Shown in pieces: positions 29,969 to 40,287 of a stretch of 40,563 bases of DNA. Each line of letters begins with the position of its first letter. Position 1 is the first letter of the stretch. Both the position numbers and the translations under genes were made by a program. The stretch is from positions 1 to 40,563 of the IMG/VR virus record IMGVR_UViG_3300032296_003692; one strand, 5' to 3'. The DNA is from a virus. Below the pieces are notes generated by a model. It made no database searches. It was not told where the DNA came from and was given only the letters and a program-made list of their open reading frames with translations.

Positions 29969-30454
29969 ATGTCAAATTGGTTTTACGAGGGTAAAGAGAT
30001 TTCTAACATCTCTGAATTCCCAGAAGGTTGCGTCGGTTTCGTATACATGATCACAAACACCACAAACGGAAGGTTCTACATAGGAAAGAAGACTCTTCAC
30101 AACACTCTCACAAAGAAACTCACAAAGAAGGAAGCGCTTAACTGGGACAAACCGGGTCGAATACCAAAGAAAAAGAAGGAAAAGAAAGAAAGCAATTGGG
30201 CTGACTATAACGGTAGCAACAAGGCATTGCAAGAGGACATAAAGCTCATAGGCATACAACACTTTCACAGGGAAATACTTGAGTTCTGCTTCAACAAGAA
30301 ACAGTGCACGTACTACGAAGAGGCATGGCAACACAAGCTTCGGGTGCTTCATGTTGACTCATACAACGATACAATAGCAGGACGTTACTACAGAAGGGAC
30401 GTTAAACCAGACCCAGAGCTGCACCCGAGCTCATCCTTGCAGCAAAATCCATGA
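29969..30454 (+). CDS. GIY-YIG domain nuclease (Seg-like)
   Basis: 161 residues. GFVYMITNTTNGRFYIGKK (about 23-41) is the GIY-YIG core. A Lys-rich insertion follows (KKKKEKKESNWADYNG), then a helix with Glu (REILEFCFNKKQCTYYEEAW). No NUMOD DNA-binding modules are seen, so it is either a minimal Seg-type homing nuclease or a resident phage nuclease. It has its own late-promoter-like element. Its last 14 codons form the left part of a 90-bp direct repeat whose second copy lies at 33243, which links the end of this gene to the insertion of the lysis module. Confidence 0.78.
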   Translation: MSNWFYEGKEISNISEFPEGCVGFVYMITNTTNGRFYIGKKTLHNTLTKKLTKKEALNWDKPGRIPKKKKEKKESNWADYNGSNKALQEDIKLIGIQHFHREILEFCFNKKQCTYYEEAWQHKLRVLHVDSYNDTIAGRYYRRDVKPDPELHPSSSLQQNP

Positions 30455-31745: not shown

Positions 31746-32855
31746 TTATTGTTTATTATTATCTTGAGTGGCATATTTAATACCCATAATTGTACCAACT
31801 ATTGAAAAAGCATTTGTTAGTAAAACACTAAACATATTACTCCAAGTTGAACCGATTATTTGAGTGTCCTTGCCTGTTATCATAGCTAACCAATATAACA
31901 CAGTTGTTACAGCCCCAACTCCTATTATTACCGCCAAAGCAACTTTAACTATAACTTTTATAAGTTCACTTTGGTTCTTTTTAATAGTTGCATCCAAATC
32001 ATTCAAAGCGGCGTTCTTCTCTATTTCAATCGCTTCTTTGAGTTTCTGTGATTTATCTAACTCTACTTGTAAATTTTTTGATAATAAATCAATTTCTTTT
32101 TTATTAATTACTGATTCGGTAATGTCAGTGGCAATCTTAATTACACTTGTAACATTTCCTTTACTATCAAAGATAGGATTGTAGGTGGCTTGTAAATAAA
32201 TAGTAGACCCATCTACTTTCTTTCTTTCATATATTCCACTAAAAGGTTCACCCTTATTTAACTTTTCCCAAAACTTACTATATTCTTCCGATTTTGAATA
32301 CTCATAACTTACAAAAATACTATGATGCTTACCAACTACTTTATTTTTTTCGTTGGCTTTATAACCCATCGCTTCTAAAAAGATAGTATTCGCATCCAAA
32401 ATAAAACCGTTAGTATCAAAAGTTATACTTGCGGTACTTCGGTTAATCGCTTCTATTTGTTTTTTACTATCGACAATAGCGGTAATGTCAGTAGCAACTT
32501 TCATTATTTTAGTAATCTTACCGCCCTCATCAAAAATTGGGTTGTACGTAGCTTGTAAGTTAATAAGACTACCATCTCTTTTCCTTCTTTCAAATTCTCC
32601 TTGATAATACTTACCGCTTCTTAATATATCCCAAAACTTTTCATACTCTAATGACCTTGCATAATCTTCGCATACAAATATGCTATGGTGTTTCCCAATG
32701 ACTTCTTCGTGTTCATTTTCACCATACCCCATCGCCTTCAAGAAGATGGCATTTACACCCAATATGATACCATTAAGGTCGAAATAAATAAGAGCATTAC
32801 TTCTATTTATTGCTTCCATTCTACTAAGTAACTCTTCTTTTGATAGATTCTTCAT
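31746..32855 (-). CDS. Tandem PAS sensor-like protein with two C-terminal transmembrane segments
   Basis: 369 residues. Two PAS domains of BdlA/chemoreceptor type are nearly duplicates: about 10-125 (IGKHHSIF...YEKFWDILRSGKYYQGEF...LQATYNPIFD) and about 132-248 (VGKHHSIF...YSKFWEKLNKGEPFSGIY...LQATYNPIFD). A coiled coil follows (about 250-297), then two membrane segments, about 299-322 (VIVKVALAVIIGVGAVTTVLY) and about 338-362 (NMFSVLLTNAFSIVGTIMGI). No kinase, methyl-accepting or GGDEF output domain is present, so the only visible output is the membrane part. It lies between the holin-like and endolysin genes, which suggests a lysis regulator or a sensor-gated holin; this is inference. The ligand or cofactor is unknown. 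The gene is clearly more AT-rich than the endolysin gene. Confidence 0.85.
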   Translation of the reverse strand: MKNLSKEELLSRMEAINRSNALIYFDLNGIILGVNAIFLKAMGYGENEHEEVIGKHHSIFVCEDYARSLEYEKFWDILRSGKYYQGEFERRKRDGSLINLQATYNPIFDEGGKITKIMKVATDITAIVDSKKQIEAINRSTASITFDTNGFILDANTIFLEAMGYKANEKNKVVGKHHSIFVSYEYSKSEEYSKFWEKLNKGEPFSGIYERKKVDGSTIYLQATYNPIFDSKGNVTSVIKIATDITESVINKKEIDLLSKNLQVELDKSQKLKEAIEIEKNAALNDLDATIKKNQSELIKVIVKVALAVIIGVGAVTTVLYWLAMITGKDTQIIGSTWSNMFSVLLTNAFSIVGTIMGIKYATQDNNKQ

Positions 32856-33399: not shown

Positions 33400-34065
33400 T
33401 TAGGTTTCTAGTATCCATTCTTTATTAACCAGCTTTCTTTTACCATTGGCCAAATCGTACGCGTACATAGGGTGAAGATTGTACTTAGTATAAAATTCCA
33501 TCTTAGTGCCTGAGAACGATTCTTTGGTACGAATATTGAAAAAGCTATAAGATTTGTTGTCCCTGTTCTTAACGTTGGGTCGACCGGTTCTAGATTTGCT
33601 CATGTTTTTTATGTGCTCTTCACTCTTCTTTTTACCTTTTAGGGCTTTACTCACTTTTTCATTCCAATCCTTTGTGTGCTCTATTTGCTTGTGAGCTTCT
33701 GACAATCGCTGCCGCGTATCCTCAGAATGAGTCTTACCCAACATACCACTGGGTTTTCCTATGTGGTGATTACGAATTTTATCTCGTACTTCCGGTGTGA
33801 ATATTATCTCTGCGCCTCTGGCGTTATTGTACCACTCGTCGCTTGATATGTCTATAGACTTGAGGTAATTCTGTTCGTACTTCAAGCATTCGTCTCTCGT
33901 TCCTTCGAACAGTATCTGTCTTTCAAATTCGTGCTCTTCGAAGTCTTTCCAAAAGTTATCGTTAGACGTCGATGATACGTATCCGTCGTCTTGAGATCCC
34001 TTGTGGTACCCTATGTACTTTCTGTTGTTTGTCTTGTTTATCCACATATATACAAAAGCTTCCAT
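33400..34065 (-). CDS. GIY-YIG homing endonuclease with NUMOD modules
   Basis: 221 residues. FVYMWINKTNNRKYIGYHKG (about 4-23) is the GIY-YIG core. GKTHSEDTRQRLSEAHK and KGKKKSEEHIKNMSKSRTG are NUMOD3-type helix repeats that contact DNA. The C-terminal SYSFFNIRTKESFSGTKMEF is a NUMOD1/IENR-like module. It is a complete free-standing homing endonuclease, inserted between the hypermodification-like operon and the lysis module. It has its own promoter-like element and a terminator, so it looks transcriptionally independent. Confidence 0.9.
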   Translation of the reverse strand: MEAFVYMWINKTNNRKYIGYHKGSQDDGYVSSTSNDNFWKDFEEHEFERQILFEGTRDECLKYEQNYLKSIDISSDEWYNNARGAEIIFTPEVRDKIRNHHIGKPSGMLGKTHSEDTRQRLSEAHKQIEHTKDWNEKVSKALKGKKKSEEHIKNMSKSRTGRPNVKNRDNKSYSFFNIRTKESFSGTKMEFYTKYNLHPMYAYDLANGKRKLVNKEWILET

Positions 34066-34082: not shown

Positions 34083-34130
34083 TGTAGTATTTTAGCAAAA
34101 GACAGTATTAGTACATTCTATTATTCTCTA

Positions 34131-35105
34131 TTACATTTCTAACAAAGTCATCATTGTTAGCAAGGTTAAAAGTATCAGAGAATATCCAAGTGTACGGTAT
34201 CTGTTTTGTTGGTCTCTTTGCCCCGTGTGAGATCGCAATGTGCTTGAAAAAAAAAAACATGTCTTATCTTCACAGTTAAGCCATTTTTGAGATTGCATAT
34301 TGTTAAGCGGGTGATCGACTAAGATCTTCATTTGTTCTAACCACAGTTCGCCCCATCGGTTCTCAGGTATAAACTCTCCTGCGCTATTCACAGAGTACTT
34401 GACCTTACCGTTTAGGTTCTGACCATCGAATATCTGGTGAAGGCCATCGAAGTGACCGGTACCTCCAAACAGTATTGACTCTGGATCTACAAGCCACGGA
34501 TAGGACATAGCTACGTATCTTGCTGTGTTCTTACATGGATACAAGGGGCTTCTGAAGTTCTGGTGCTCTTTGAAGTAAGACTCAAGAAGCTTTGCGAATC
34601 CCATCATCGTGAACTTTGGTCTAATTCCCTTTTCAACCTCGTCCAATACGTGATAGAGGTCTTTAGCTGCTCTCCGCGGACCGTCTAGAACCCACTCTTT
34701 AACGTTCGTGCCCTTTGGGTAGTATATCTGAAATAGATCGTTTCTAGCGTGTCTGTTTTCTTTGAAGTGTTCCCTGGTAGCTTCTACGCCCTCGTTGTAA
34801 AGCTTAGTGAAAGTGCCCCAGTGCTCGTTAGTAAAAGAGAACACAAGTGTGTAGAACAGTCTTGCGCGATTGTCTATAACCTCTTGCATGTACTCACAGT
34901 AGGGGTGTTCGTGCCAGTGGAGACGGTGTGAGAAGATTTGATATTCTGATTGAAGTAGATCGTCCTGCCTGTCGTCGAACTTGTGACAGAACTCAAAGAA
35001 CTTGCCTATGCGCTCTTCTTCGGTCCAATCCTTCATCCACGATCTGGTAGGCTTCTTTCCTTTGAAGGGTACTTCGCACGTGTTGTTGTAGATTATGTTG
35101 CTCAT
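34131..35105 (-). CDS. Unknown protein of candidate DNA-modification operon; C-terminus frameshifted at T11
   Basis: 324 residues as read, starting MSNIIYNNTCEVPFKGKKPT. It shares short features with the upstream gene product (HPYxxxM; a (N/R)xSPxY...NA motif, here NFRSPLYPCKNTARYVA near 192-208), so the two may be distant paralogues. Near residue 286 the gene meets eleven T in a row. Reading straight on gives an unlikely tail rich in Leu/Thr to the stop at 34131. Moving to the -1 frame gives FFKHIAISHGAKRPTKQIPY... to a stop at 34108, which looks far more like protein. No catalytic family can be named with confidence; a thymidine-hypermodification transferase is one possibility. Its start overlaps the previous stop by 4 nt. 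Confidence 0.6.
   Translation of the reverse strand: MSNIIYNNTCEVPFKGKKPTRSWMKDWTEEERIGKFFEFCHKFDDRQDDLLQSEYQIFSHRLHWHEHPYCEYMQEVIDNRARLFYTLVFSFTNEHWGTFTKLYNEGVEATREHFKENRHARNDLFQIYYPKGTNVKEWVLDGPRRAAKDLYHVLDEVEKGIRPKFTMMGFAKLLESYFKEHQNFRSPLYPCKNTARYVAMSYPWLVDPESILFGGTGHFDGLHQIFDGQNLNGKVKYSVNSAGEFIPENRWGELWLEQMKILVDHPLNNMQSQKWLNCEDKTCFFFSSTLRSHTGQRDQQNRYRTLGYSLILLTLLTMMTLLEM
34247..34257 (-). other. T11 homopolymer, probable frameshift or slippage site
   Basis: On the coding strand the codons TGT TTT TTT TTT TCA contain U UUU UUU in the reading frame, the classical -1 slippery heptamer. The better-looking C-terminus lies in the -1 frame. Programmed frameshifting, polymerase slippage or a sequencing or assembly error could each explain it. 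Confidence 0.7.
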
Positions 35106-36283
35106 AGTCCGTAGTGTTCTTTTACTTTTTGTTTGTATTGCTCTTCTGTTAAATTCAATGATTTTAGTACCTTATCGTCTGACGGATGCTCTTTTATGCC
35201 GTTGAAGGATGGTACAAGCCCTAAGTCTAGCATCGCCCTCTGTCTTCCATACGGGTGATCCTTGATGCTTGAACTGTTCCAAACGTGATCGAAGTCAAGG
35301 TGATCGTAGTCAGCCCCTGGTTTAACATAATTCTCGATCCAACGTATGCTATCACAAGCGACGTCCTCTGCGTTGTACGGATAGCTGCCCGTGTCCTCGT
35401 ATATCTTCATCATCACAGCATCCAAGAAATCTTCCTTCTGCATCTTTATTGACTTTGTAGCTAGGTATTCGATGCACTCAATTGCGTTGGTACCGTAGTA
35501 GAAGGGACTCTCCCTGTTTACAAACTCAGGAAACCAATCAGCTATGTCTGCTATGAACGCGGCGTATTGGAATTTAAAAGCTCTTAGCCCACGGTCCTTG
35601 TTCCACTGAAACATGAAGTCACCAATCTCCCGTAAATTCTTTTTACCACCCTGTTCCAAGAAAGCTGCGACGTCCTCTGCCAACTGTGGTACGTATTCGC
35701 AAAGGAAATAGTCTCCTCCGCGCTTGTATCTGCCCTGTGGTTTTGGAAAGCTTGGGAATTGGTAGCCTATCGATGTGTAGAACGGTCTGATCGCCTGTTT
35801 GATTATTTCCGTCATCTGGGGAATGTTATCTGCCTTGTGCATGTCAAACAGAAGCGTATTGTGGTAACCTGAAGGCTTCATCGAATAGTTGATAGCTGAA
35901 CCAGTTAAACGGTGAAATAGGAACAGGTACAGCCACTCTCTAAGACCGAAGACGTTTTGTTTGCCAGTCCAGTTCTTTGATATAGTCTCCCTCTGCTTCG
36001 TCATCAATCCGTCTTTCATTTTATTCCAGTACGGGTGATCCTCTGAGAAACCGTAGAAACAGTCGTTGACAATCTGCGAGAATCCAGCGTACTTCCTTTC
36101 AACCACGTCGTACAGTTCTACGTGTTTCATTAGGTCGTCGTTAACGCTCGAATCGCAGTGCTTGATCCTTCCAAGGTTACACTCTTCCTGTTGTACTTTA
36201 GCCATCTCAAAGTACTTTAAAAACTCTTCGTAGTACTTAGTAGGCTTAATGTATTTGACTAGTTCTGTTGCTGTTCTTGTCAT
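35102..36283 (-). CDS. Unknown protein, possibly amino-acid:DNA transferase-like (candidate base modification)
   Basis: 393 residues. Notable stretches are WLYLFLFHRLTGSAINY, then SGYHNTLLFDMHKAD (about 137-170), GDYFLCEYVPQLAEDV (about 209-224) and GLRAFKFQYAAFIADIADWF followed by VNRESPFYYGTNAIECIEYL (about 250-292). The RLTGSxINY...GYHNT pattern reminds me of the alpha-glutamyl/putrescinyl-thymine pyrophosphorylase (amino-acid:DNA transferase) families of hypermodified phages, but I cannot confirm this without a profile search. The operon context with a DNA glycosylase supports a DNA-base role. It overlaps its neighbours by 4 nt on both sides, and is richer in G+C than the virion genes. 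Confidence 0.6.
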   Translation of the reverse strand: MTRTATELVKYIKPTKYYEEFLKYFEMAKVQQEECNLGRIKHCDSSVNDDLMKHVELYDVVERKYAGFSQIVNDCFYGFSEDHPYWNKMKDGLMTKQRETISKNWTGKQNVFGLREWLYLFLFHRLTGSAINYSMKPSGYHNTLLFDMHKADNIPQMTEIIKQAIRPFYTSIGYQFPSFPKPQGRYKRGGDYFLCEYVPQLAEDVAAFLEQGGKKNLREIGDFMFQWNKDRGLRAFKFQYAAFIADIADWFPEFVNRESPFYYGTNAIECIEYLATKSIKMQKEDFLDAVMMKIYEDTGSYPYNAEDVACDSIRWIENYVKPGADYDHLDFDHVWNSSSIKDHPYGRQRAMLDLGLVPSFNGIKEHPSDDKVLKSLNLTEEQYKQKVKEHYGL

Positions 36284-37335
36284 TGTATTCTGCTGTTTTG
36301 TTGATTTAATTCGTAATCCCAGTAGTGAAACTCCCTGGATATGTGTACTGACTGTGGCTTCTCCATAACTTTGAAGTCTAACTCCCCAAGCTCGTTAGTG
36401 AACACCTCTGGCACCTTATACACAGACCAACCGTTTTCCAAAGCCAACATGTTTAGCTTGATGTTGATGTATTTGGAGATCGCTGTTCGCTCTTCCCACG
36501 TACCGAAGTAAGGCATCTTCTTGTACCATCCGGTCTTTGGAATGGTCCTAGAAACGTTCTCGATAGGCAGCACCTCAGTCAACGTAACCGATTCCATGTT
36601 GAGATCCAAAAGCTGTTGTTTCAAAGACTCAATCATCTCGTCAACCGACTTCAGTGGGTTCTGTTGTCTCATTAAATGGTGTCTAACGTCTATGTTGCCC
36701 ATGTAAACTATGAGTTCTTTTACCCAAGGGAACACGTACGTACCGAGTCCCCTATTCAACGCGCCGTGCATTGTAAGCCCGTCGTTTCTAGATACCATCC
36801 AACCGGGTCTGTAAGTACTGAAGCAGTGCGAATCACCGAAGACAAGCTTATCAGTCTTTTCTACGAAATCAACGCGGGGAATAGAAGTAGAGCATATTTC
36901 GTTAGCTTCGTCGGCTCTTTCCAACAGGGTTTTGAACTGTTCTGTACCCGTGCGGTGTCTTTCTCTGATCAGCTTACCGATGGGCGGCATGTCAATGTGC
37001 AGCGAATAGATGCGTACGCCTATGGTAAAGATGCGTTTGACCTGATCGTACAGCTCGTCGTTAGCGCCACCGAATATGTTGAACGTTCCCTTGAACTCCA
37101 TGCCGTGCTCGATGACTATAACATCGAAGTCCGACCAATCTGTCTTTTGATCGTGTATGAGTGTGACGTTCTCGTAACCAGCGTGTCGCAATTGGTTAAC
37201 GATCATGGTGGGCCAACCAGCCTTGTGGGAAGATATTTGCTTGCTTATCTTGCCAACGATTGCTGACACGCCAATCTTCACGCTCTTGTCTTTTTCGTAG
37301 TCCGTGAAATAAGTGAAATTGAAATCTGTGTTCAT
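36280..37335 (-). CDS. SGNH/GDSL hydrolase-like protein with N-terminal Rossmann-like domain
   Basis: 351 residues. The N-terminal part (about 30-120) has alternating strands and helices (GWPTMIVNQLRHAGYENVTL, then SDFDVIVIEHG). The second part holds SGNH-type blocks: LVFGDSHCFSTYRPGWM near 168-184 (block I GDSH), ELIVYMGNIDVRHHLMRQ near 210-227 (block III GNxD) and VHISREFHYW near 333-342 (a His near block V). SGNH enzymes hydrolyse esters or transfer acyl or sugar groups. In this operon it might process or attach a group on a modified base; the substrate is unknown. Coupled by a 4-nt overlap to the downstream gene and 2 nt from the glycosylase gene. Confidence 0.62.
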   Translation of the reverse strand: MNTDFNFTYFTDYEKDKSVKIGVSAIVGKISKQISSHKAGWPTMIVNQLRHAGYENVTLIHDQKTDWSDFDVIVIEHGMEFKGTFNIFGGANDELYDQVKRIFTIGVRIYSLHIDMPPIGKLIRERHRTGTEQFKTLLERADEANEICSTSIPRVDFVEKTDKLVFGDSHCFSTYRPGWMVSRNDGLTMHGALNRGLGTYVFPWVKELIVYMGNIDVRHHLMRQQNPLKSVDEMIESLKQQLLDLNMESVTLTEVLPIENVSRTIPKTGWYKKMPYFGTWEERTAISKYINIKLNMLALENGWSVYKVPEVFTNELGELDFKVMEKPQSVHISREFHYWDYELNQQNSRIQ

Positions 37336-37337
37336 AT

Positions 37338-38096
37338 TTATGCTGCTTTGTTGTTTTTAATCCTTTCGAACAGTGCCGTTACCTGTCTAGCGTAGTTCTC
37401 TTCGTCGGTTGTAAGCGGTTTCTCCTCGTCGACCCATTCTTCTACGCCGTTGCTTATGCCCATGATCTTGATGTGTTGGGATCCCTGCTGGTTTAATGCA
37501 ATCTTCTCAGTCTTCTCTATCGCCTCTCCTATGGTTCTGGCCATAACGCAACAGACGTAGTCTCCACGTTTGTTCCAGTTGTTGATGAAGTACCTGTCGT
37601 CTTTGAAGTGAAGATAGTACACAACCATAGGTTTCCAGGGCGACGCTTCGCGAGCTAATCTTTCGACCTCCTGCCTCGCCCAATCCACGTACCAATTCAA
37701 CACGTGATCGTCGACTTCTGTGTCGTACTGAAATAGCTGAAACACCTTCCACGAATCGAGAGCATATCTGCCTACGCCTCTCATATCTTCTAACACCGAT
37801 AGTGGAACAGAAGTACCGTACTCTTCAACTGCCTCGATCCACTGTTTGCTGAACTCCTTCCAAGACTTTGCTCTCCTGTTGTAGAATCCTAGGGATTTGA
37901 TCATGGAGGCTATTTCTGACTCTTCTGCCGCTACCAAAGCCTCAGGGGTTGGGAACCTATCGAAGAACTCGTGGCGAACCTGGTCGACTTGCTTGTGGCT
38001 CGTTTGGTTTAACATGAAGCACACCAGTAACATTTTCCAGGGATCTTCTCTGTACTCCTCTTGCCTTGTGTTGTAGGGGGAAATCTGTAACTTCAT
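37338..38096 (-). CDS. MBD4-like HhH-GPD DNA glycosylase
   Basis: 252 residues. The N-terminal 145 residues follow the MBD4 glycosylase fold closely: REDPWKMLLVCFMLNQTSHK (about 16-35), MIKSLGFYNRRAKSWKEFS, then the helix-hairpin-helix MRGVGRYALDSWKVFQ (about 109-124) and the catalytic-Asp region EVDDHVLNWYVDWA (about 132-145). No iron-sulphur cysteine cluster is present, as in MBD4. MBD4-type enzymes remove thymine, uracil or 5-hydroxymethyluracil from DNA. About 100 C-terminal residues (YLHFKDDRYFINNWN...) form an extra, unassigned domain. It is the first gene of the four-gene leftward operon, so it may edit, exchange or police modified bases rather than perform ordinary repair. Confidence 0.85.
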   Translation of the reverse strand: MKLQISPYNTRQEEYREDPWKMLLVCFMLNQTSHKQVDQVRHEFFDRFPTPEALVAAEESEIASMIKSLGFYNRRAKSWKEFSKQWIEAVEEYGTSVPLSVLEDMRGVGRYALDSWKVFQLFQYDTEVDDHVLNWYVDWARQEVERLAREASPWKPMVVYYLHFKDDRYFINNWNKRGDYVCCVMARTIGEAIEKTEKIALNQQGSQHIKIMGISNGVEEWVDEEKPLTTDEENYARQVTALFERIKNNKAA

Positions 38097-38164: not shown

Positions 38165-38190
38165 AAAAAAAGACCCAAACTAGTGGGTCT
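38165..38190 (-). terminator. Rho-independent terminator
   Basis: Minus strand: AGACCC-(8-nt loop ACTAGTTT)-GGGTCT followed by a T-run (plus-strand A at 38165-38171). It stands 22 nt beyond the stop of the 38212 gene and separates it from the glycosylase operon, which must therefore have its own promoter in 38097-38164. Confidence 0.8.
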
Positions 38191-38211
38191 TAAAAATTAA
38201 GCCTATAGAGA

Positions 38212-38511
38212 TTACATAGTGTCAATTTCTACGTGCATTTCATTTATCTTATTTATCAAATAGGACTTTACGTCTTCTGGTTCAAATCCCTCTCTTACTA
38301 AATCGTCTATCATGGTTTCTACAGCTTCTACGAAAACAGCTAGATATTTTTGGCTAATTAAACCGTCTATGCTGGGACCTTCGTAATCTTCGTCTTCTCC
38401 CATAGCTGTACCGATTTCCTCTTTCACTGGTTTCATGTCAACGTATCCACCGATGCTTTCGTTTAAGAGTTGGTTGTTCTTTAGGTATCCTTGTAAATTG
38501 AACTTGTCCAT
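38212..38511 (-). CDS. Small acidic protein of unknown function
   Basis: 99 residues from the ATG at 38511 (MDKFNLQGYLKNNQLLNES). An upstream in-frame ATG at 38541 would place the TATTTATT element inside the gene, so the later start is preferred. The first half is polar and acidic. The second is a helix-rich domain (YLAVFVEAVETMIDDLVREG, then PEDVKSYLINKINE). No family is recognised. It is followed by a terminator. Confidence 0.65.
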   Translation of the reverse strand: MDKFNLQGYLKNNQLLNESIGGYVDMKPVKEEIGTAMGEDEDYEGPSIDGLISQKYLAVFVEAVETMIDDLVREGFEPEDVKSYLINKINEMHVEIDTM

Positions 38512-38526
38512 TGTTTTTGCTTTAAT

Positions 38527-38534
38527 AATAAATA
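38527..38534 (-). promoter_or_regulatory. TATTTATT late-promoter-like element
   Basis: On the minus strand it reads tgaTATTTATTattaaag, 15 nt before the ATG at 38511. It immediately abuts, without overlapping, the stop of the upstream gene at 38535. Confidence 0.5.
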
Positions 38535-38750
38535 TCACCAATTTTCTAAAATCTCACCGTCGACAACAACGTTAACCACCTTTCCCCGAACCTCGTCGTA
38601 TTCGATAGACCTAATGTATGCCTTGGGACTCTTTATCTTATCGTACCTTAATACGTCCCCGTTTTCGTATTCTACGCTTACCGTGTGTCCCCCAGGTTTC
38701 AACGACAGCGGGTTTGTTCTGTACTTGTCTTTTACATAAAACTTTGCCAT
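38535..38750 (-). CDS. Small beta-rich protein of unknown function
   Basis: 71 residues from the ATG at 38750 (MAKFYVKDKYRTNPLSLKPG). The frame continues upstream into the tmRNA 3' end and a terminator, so the longer version is not real. The sequence is basic and strand-rich (HTVSVEYENGDVLRYDKIKS). No family is recognised. It lies between the tmRNA terminator and the next small gene. Confidence 0.62.
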   Translation of the reverse strand: MAKFYVKDKYRTNPLSLKPGGHTVSVEYENGDVLRYDKIKSPKAYIRSIEYDEVRGKVVNVVVDGEILENW

Positions 38751-39594: not shown

Positions 39595-39596
39595 TG

Positions 39597-39677
39597 TGCC
39601 CCATGAGAGACTCGAACTCTCACTGCCGAAGCGCTAGATCCTAAGTCTAGTGTGTCTACCAATTCCACCAACGGGGC
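39597..39677 (-). tRNA. tRNA-Leu(UAG)
   Basis: The acceptor stem is GCCCCGT/ATGGGGC with discriminator A. The anticodon arm CTAGA-CTTAGGA-TCTAG gives anticodon TAG. A long variable arm (gcTTCGgc) and the T arm GAGAG-TTCGAGT-CTCTC mark it as a class II tRNA. No CCA is encoded. It reads CUA codons. Confidence 0.93.
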
Positions 39678-40189: not shown

Positions 40190-40215
40190 CATATGTCAAA
40201 GAGCCTGTAACTATG

Positions 40216-40287
40216 TACCACCAACGAGAATCGAACTCGTGACTCCTCCGTGAAAGGGAGGCGTCTTAACCCCTTGACCATGGCGGC
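40216..40287 (-). tRNA. tRNA-Glu(UUC)
   Basis: The acceptor stem GCCGCCA/TGGTGGT includes two G-U pairs and discriminator A. The anticodon arm CCTCC-CTTTCAC-GGAGG gives anticodon TTC. The T arm is ACGAG-TTCGATT-CTCGT. 72 nt, no encoded CCA. Confidence 0.93.

Follow-up and report, generated by a model that had tools for sequence, protein, structure and literature searches.

What does a gene for an MBD4-type DNA glycosylase do at the head of a compact phage operon whose other three products match no sequence family of known function? The question is raised by a 40,563-base IMG/VR record (IMGVR_UViG_3300032296_003692; the whole record is referred to below as the window), which is a fragment of a T4-like phage genome and carries four adjacent minus-strand genes, numbered here g1 to g4. 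A first-pass annotation of the window proposed that these genes make, swap or police a modified pyrimidine, likened them to the thymidine hypermodification systems of other phages and favoured base replacement as the purpose of the glycosylase. Our analysis, in which the pathway was inferred from relatives of the window, leads to a different answer. With a probability of about 0.62, the four genes belong to a phage pathway for amino-acid-type hypermodification of 5-hydroxymethylcytosine (5hmC) in the phage's own DNA, with g1 repairing deaminated bases. The first-pass annotation was right on the kind of system and probably wrong on the base and on the purpose of the glycosylase.

Paired genes of predicted transferase fold

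Searches of Pfam, PHROGs, NCBIfam and PADLOC with g2, g3 and g4 found no family of known function, and a sequence search of the PDB with profiles of g2, g3 and g4 returned nothing. Weak matches to SutA, DUF2111 and DUF7852 in the family searches of these three genes were judged to be due to chance. Structures were predicted with AlphaFold2 for g3 from the window sequence and for g4 from an intact orthologue (L104), with predicted local distance difference test scores of 89.8 and 89.6, respectively. The best solved structure for both models was 8z2n, the PaMx11 gp46 5-phosphomethyl-dU (5-PmdU) glycinyltransferase, which aligned with the g3 model at Z 10.0 (root mean square deviation of 3.8 Å over 209 residues) and with the g4 model at Z 9.8 (4.0 Å over 230 residues), values near 10 being moderate for helical proteins according to the aligner's own note. 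The rows that followed were 8-oxoguanine glycosylases and DUF2419, with top unrelated Z scores of 7.5 for g3 and 7.0 for g4. A plain Foldseek search of the PDB with the g4 model gave nothing at E≤0.001, and 8z2n was raised only by the second-look aligner. Among the viral models of BFVD, the closest relatives of g3 and g4, at 59% and 52% identity, carry the name "Amino acid:DNA transferase domain-containing protein," and weaker matches included the 5-hydroxymethyl-dU (5-hmdU) DNA kinase of SP10, the HMUDK helical protein of PhiW-14 and clade 1 of aGPT-PPlase.

It had been suspected that g3 and g4 are paralogues because of shared HPYxxxM and SPxY..NA features. Both features were found in the two proteins, the second as SPxYxxxNxA, and the paralogy holds because each model retrieved the relatives of the other (E values of 1.3e-3 and 2.7e-3, probability 1.00). 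The two families also share a motif near the C terminus, N-x-E-D-x2-C-x3-[KR], present in 40/41 g3 members and 38/38 g4 members, which resembles the E-x3-C-x2-K of M6 ADDT and the E-x3-C-x3-K of most M6-type HMUDK_hel proteins. On the basis of the closest predicted fold, g3 and g4 are best described as diverged paralogues within the amino-acid:DNA transferase/HMUDK-helical superfamily. One phage can carry a further member of this fold, since G004 has a diverged g3 paralogue (27% identity; L303:181-1227, corresponding to G004:40181-41227) between the genes for GroEL and a pyridoxal phosphate (PLP) enzyme.

In the window, the g4 reading frame is broken inside a run of 11 A residues, a feature absent from the first-pass annotation, and the relatives of g4 are intact (~331 aa). 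The counterpart of the last ~46 residues of those relatives lies in a different frame of the window, which reads ...FFFKHIAISHGAKRPTKQIPYTWIFSDTFNLANNDDFVRNVIENNRMY, matches the intact proteins and continues to about position 34110. The break could be a sequencing or assembly error, a real mutation or a site of (transcriptional) slippage.

Linked enzymes and the modified base

Single-sequence searches of IMG/VR found g3 relatives in 32 contigs, g4 relatives in 143 (the best 80 of which were retained) and g1 relatives in 13, and profile searches of environmental phage contigs raised the numbers to at least 525 for g3 and at least 370 for g4. Of the 32 contigs from the g3 search, 30 have g4 directly after g3, and 24 have g1 ahead of them. 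The commonest gene orders, tallied over loci that can overlap within one contig, were g1-g3-g4, g2-g3-g4-PLP, g2-g3-PLP and g3-g4-g2-PLP. Such conservation of gene order far exceeds what chance would give, and these orders make g3 and g4 the core of the cassette, with g1, g2 and the PLP enzyme as frequent partners. No relative of g3 or g4 was found by tblastn among the cultured phages of the collection; AXL1_67 (339 aa) and Donnerlittchen_00340 (336 aa), which lie beside an HhH gene, were considered, and a relationship to g4 was ruled out by alignment. The cassette was also present in contigs from metagenome-assembled genomes labelled Bacteroidetes, Thermoleophilia, Microbacteriaceae and Opitutales (L348, L349, L350 and L351), which are probably phage contigs binned with their hosts.

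In L348, genes that mostly overlap or sit within 20 bases of each other run in the order PRA-PH pyrophosphohydrolase, Nmad1, dCMP hydroxymethylase, dCMP deaminase, g3, g4, PLP enzyme and g2. The arrangement is similar in L349, L237, L238 and L030, and an Asp-type, T4-gp42-like dCMP hydroxymethylase shares the operon with the cassette in L348, L349, L237 and L030. The PLP enzyme was present in 12/17 contigs, in many loci adjoining g3/g4 or g2, and is distantly related to M6 gp52 (hhalign probability 82%, E value of 1e-5), itself encoded next to the amino-acid:DNA transferase (ADDT) of M6. In G003 and G004, genes for a PLP enzyme, DUF6378, dUTPase, dCMP deaminase and an Asp-type enzyme are grouped in a second cluster that adjoins GroEL and is distant from the g2-g3-g4 locus.

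To assign the base, the enzymes of the thymidylate synthase (TS) family encoded in contigs bearing g3/g4 were aligned with T4 gp42, SPO1 gp29 and M6 gp58. The position corresponding to Asn177 of Escherichia coli TS is Asn in dUMP enzymes and Asp in T4 gp42. The change of Asn177 to Asp is reported to switch the substrate from dUMP to dCMP and has been used as a mark of cytosine-modified contigs (PMC8670742). The linked hydroxymethylase-type genes encoded Asp at this position in 11/11 contigs, namely, L023 (G003), L109 (G004), L098 (G005), L030, L213 (G020), L216 (G021), L231 (G024), L237 (G025), L238, L348 and L349. The enzymes of L348, L349, L237 and L238 are 50 to 64% identical to that of L030, which in turn is about 54 to 64% identical to T4-type dCMP hydroxymethylases of phages. 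Asn occupies the same position in the plain thymidylate synthases of G005 and G019, which look like ordinary dTMP synthases. The Asp residue could also signal a dCMP methylase. The P-loop kinase of 5-hmdU (PF18748) was found in 0/17 contigs at E≤0.1, the records being possibly incomplete. A TS search of six further g1-bearing contigs, fragments of 8 to 57 kb, found none, and the T4 genes alpha-gt, beta-gt, gp56, denA and denB were not found by tblastn in four relatives. The earlier proposal of a modified-pyrimidine cassette is thus upheld by the transferase-superfamily fold and the conserved base-modification neighbourhood, but its thymidine model is not, and the modified base is probably not thymine.

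The glycosylase, the g2 protein and the layout of the locus

The identification of g1 as a clear MBD4-type HhH-GPD protein was confirmed. It matched HhH-GPD in Pfam (PF00730, E value of 1.3e-12), and the best PDB match of the g1-family profile was MBD4 (4e9e, 2.5e-28), followed by endonuclease III (2.3e-13) and Mig.Mth, an archaeal enzyme for G-T mismatches (1kea, 1.4e-12). The glycines of the HhH motif (G107/G109) and the catalytic Asp (D130), which aligns with the Asp of MBD4 PEDHKLN, were invariant across 21 members, and a four-Cys iron-sulfur motif was looked for and none was found. From these residues, g1 is plausibly an active monofunctional glycosylase for T, U or 5-hydroxymethyluracil (5hmU) in mismatches. 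Deamination of 5-methylcytosine or 5hmC leaves T or 5hmU opposite G, both of which MBD4 removes, and Mig.Mth accompanies a cytosine-5 methyltransferase. For TDG, excision of T, U and 5hmU paired with G is reported (PMC3488261). Repair of deaminated modified cytosines would therefore be a simpler role for g1 than base swapping. The proposal that the glycosylase serves base replacement is not supported, as g1 looks like an ordinary MBD4-type enzyme with its catalytic Asp, a type that targets the deamination products of modified cytosine. In addition, g1 is seemingly dispensable for the modification itself, since many of the operons lack it.

Four phages of Bradleyvirinae type (AXL_1, Donnerlittchen, YB23 and DoCa6) also encode relatives of MBD4, and the glycosylase gene there adjoins genes for a synthase of the Asp type (LPYD), a pyrophosphohydrolase-type protein and a dCMP deaminase. 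The glycosylase/synthase pairs lie at L116:8623-10809, L115:6505-8623, L346:3908-6037 and L347:3908-6103, and the synthase homologue is annotated there as "thymidylate synthase" or "hypothetical." Judged from its residues, this homologue is likely a dCMP (hydroxy)methylase, and these phages likely have DNA with modified cytosine. Since these loci repeat the pairing, two phage groups appear to combine an MBD4-type glycosylase with genes for cytosine-5 modification.

The SGNH-like motifs reported for g2, GDSH, GNID (as GNIDxRxH) and a late His (VH), are retained across 16 relatives. Membership in the SGNH family was not supported by any profile match in Pfam, NCBIfam or the PDB, however, and g2 is therefore SGNH-like by motif only. 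Its best PHROGs matches, phrog_17781 (2.1e-53) and phrog_13881 (1e-51), have no assigned function. Homologues of g2 were found in 43 records of cultured phages (38 Aeromonas, 3 Tenacibaculum and 2 Stenotrophomonas). In Aeromonas phage 44RR, ORF233c (795 aa; L184:6040-8427) joins the g2 domain to a C-terminal HMUDK_hel-like region, which scored an E value of 0.0036 and 17.2 bits against PF18723, under the cutoff of 25. In SP10-type 5-hmdU kinases, the kinase is joined to a helical domain, and because the 44RR fusion parallels this arrangement, g2 may be imagined as a substitute for the kinase. In Aeromonas phage 25 (L186:2764-4945), genes for a UDP-galactopyranose mutase and a glycosyltransferase-like protein lie just upstream of the g2 homologue, which hints at a furanose sugar on the hydroxymethylcytosine DNA of that phage.

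The operon itself is real. Its four leftward genes (Table 1) were verified, with a gap of 2 nucleotides (nt) between g1 and g2 and overlaps of 4 nt each at the g2/g3 and g3/g4 junctions. It is also richer in G+C than the virion genes, as had been noted, reaching 45.2% where the virion block has 38.0%; at third codon positions, G+C is 52 to 60% versus 33 to 34% in two virion genes. The upstream terminator said to close off the operon is present as a hairpin on the minus strand, but it forms the end of the upstream gene (38212-38541), and terminator-like sites are not commoner in the window than in shuffled sequence (4 found versus 4.6 expected).

Table 1. Features of the g1-g4 locus and their positions in the window
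Feature	Position	Strand	Description
g1	37338..38096	minus	MBD4-type HhH-GPD DNA glycosylase, 252 aa, with a C-terminal extension of ~100 aa
g2	36280..37335	minus	Conserved protein with SGNH-like motifs, 351 aa
g3	35102..36283	minus	Predicted amino-acid:DNA-transferase-fold protein, 393 aa; most constant member of the cassette
g4	34131..35105	minus	Second predicted amino-acid:DNA-transferase-fold protein, open reading frame (ORF) of 324 aa, paralogue of g3
11-A homopolymer	34247..34257		Site of the g4 frame break
Terminator-like hairpin and U-run	38170..38191	minus	Belongs to the upstream gene and separates that gene from the operon

Elsewhere in the window, genes for tRNA-Leu (tag anticodon, 39596-39677) and tRNA-Glu (40215-40287) lie just upstream of the operon region. 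ORFs resembling GIY-YIG homing endonucleases were recognized on reading the sequence at 33400-34065, directly downstream of g4, and at 2157-2867 and 29969-30454. The region at 31746-32855 encodes two similar PAS S-box domains with hydrophobic C-terminal segments, which is unusual for a phage.

Proposed pathway and alternatives

We propose that hm-dCMP would be made by a dCMP hydroxymethylase encoded elsewhere in the genome and incorporated as 5hmC. After replication, g3 and g4 would act on flipped-out 5hmC, one of them perhaps helping to activate or bind the base and the other transferring an amino acid or amine to its methylene carbon, and the PLP enzyme, of fold type II, would then trim the appended amino acid. 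An activating or finishing step may be supplied by g2, and g1 would excise T or 5hmU opposite G arising from deamination of the modified cytosine. The modification would presumably shield the DNA from host nucleases.

Several results weigh against this scheme. At the level of the fold, the Z scores are moderate, as stated above, and no match to PF18724 (ADDT) was found at E≤1 among 38 g4 and 40 g3 members, nor to PF18723 (HMUDK_hel) in the g3/g4 members or in 19 contigs. Profile-profile comparison of g3 and g4 with ADDT and HMUDK_hel gave scores that were not significant, in a benchmark that proved nondiscriminating, as the accepted pair ADDT-HMUDK_hel reached only an E value of 0.0074 (probability 5%) and a decoy reached 0.011; on its own, this comparison gives no proof of a transferase link. 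Furthermore, g3 and g4 may not share a single activity, and no activating kinase was found. Because the window, as a 40.5-kb fragment, has neither a hydroxymethylase nor a PLP gene, the base was assigned from relatives, and no hydroxymethylase was found in G001, G006, G008, G022, G023 and G026 (100 to 174 kb, all possibly incomplete).

The alternatives were weighed on the same evidence. Thymidine hypermodification, with g3 and g4 acting on 5-hmdU as in M6, ViI, SP10 and PhiW-14, would agree with the nearest solved and predicted structures, which act on 5-hmdU derivatives, and with the dCMP deaminase and dUTPase of the relatives, which feed dUMP pools. We nevertheless consider it unlikely, as all hydroxymethylases linked to g3/g4 are of the Asp type, five of them gp42-like with 50 to 64% mutual identity, the PF18748 kinase was not found in the 17 contigs searched, and the Asn-type synthases of G005 and G019 look like ordinary dTMP synthases. 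It is quite improbable that 5hmC is decorated by another chemistry, such as the transfer of an acyl, phosphoryl or sugar group by g2, with g3 and g4 serving only as DNA-binding, base-flipping partners. The sugar genes beside the g2 homologue of phage 25 and the fusion of g2 to an HMUDK_hel-like region in 44RR are consistent with such a scheme, but the PLP enzyme of the M6 gp52 type implies an amino acid substrate on the DNA.

The presence of Ogg and AGOG glycosylases among the rows after 8z2n for both models, together with the glycosylase nature of g1, could instead suggest that g3 and g4 are Ogg2/AGOG-like DNA glycosylases or repair enzymes and that the operon is a repair island. We give this little credence, since 8z2n scored 2.5 to 2.8 Z above the glycosylase rows, the C-terminal motif and the viral neighbours belong to the modification superfamily, and the genes are tightly linked to those for a hydroxymethylase and a PLP enzyme. 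Least probable of all is base exchange, in which excision by g1 would make room for the insertion of a modified base. Exchange of the DpdA type is known for 7-deazaguanine, and g1 has kept its catalytic Asp and stands first in the operon. On the other hand, many g2-g3-g4-PLP operons are without g1, no insertase domain or tRNA-guanine-transglycosylase-like (DpdA/TGT) domain was found in g1 to g4 with Pfam, and enzymes of the MBD4/TDG type have a fitting repair role beside cytosine-5 modification, as reported for TDG (PMC3488261) and as the match to Mig.Mth suggests.

The 5hmC amino-acid hypermodification proposed here thus resembles several known systems without coinciding with any. The predicted fold of g3 and g4 and their C-terminal motif recall PaMx11 gp46 (PUGT, Pfam ADDT), with its E-x3-C...K motif, but the identity is only 6 to 12%, there is no Pfam match, there are two paralogues rather than one, and the linked hydroxymethylase is of the dCMP type. 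The thymidine hypermodification loci of M6, SP10 and PhiW-14 share the helical-domain superfamily, a PALP enzyme (in M6, a PLP enzyme gene likewise lies near transferase-fold genes), a TS-family hydroxymethylase and nucleotide hydrolases; they differ in their P-loop 5-hmdU kinase and Asn-type hydroxymethylase and have no counterpart of g2. With the T4 system (gp42 and glucosyltransferases) and the 5hmC carbamoyltransferase system (PMC8670742), the shared elements would be a gp42-type enzyme and decoration of 5hmC, whereas the transferases here have the predicted amino-acid:DNA-transferase fold. The attachment of an amino acid to a cytosine derivative of phage DNA, as proposed here, has a parallel in the 5-carboxymethylcytosine-glycine of CmoX/CmoY, which is made by unrelated enzymes through carboxy-S-adenosylmethionine (Cx-SAM)-dependent carboxymethylation and an ATP-dependent ligase (PMC12783734). 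Finally, g1 is of the same thymine/uracil mismatch glycosylase type as MBD4 and Mig.Mth but is phage borne, extended at its C terminus and located beside hypermodification genes.

A broader picture, in which a widespread group of T4-like phages would use a paired transferase-fold module to place an amino-acid-derived hypermodification on 5hmC, with g2 replacing the P-loop kinase in activation and a dedicated MBD4-type guard, is offered only tentatively and is rather doubtful in its entirety. To our knowledge, amino-acid:DNA transferases have so far been shown to act only on 5-hmdU derivatives, that is, on thymine-type bases. If the hypermodification of 5hmC is correct, a cytosine branch would bring a second base within reach of such enzymes and would provide a function for two profile-less families that number hundreds of contigs among environmental phages. 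The g2 family would likewise gain a function, one that could be tested now in T4-like Aeromonas phages in culture (44RR, 31 and 25). The data further suggest that phages whose cytosine is modified have an MBD4-type deamination repair of their own.

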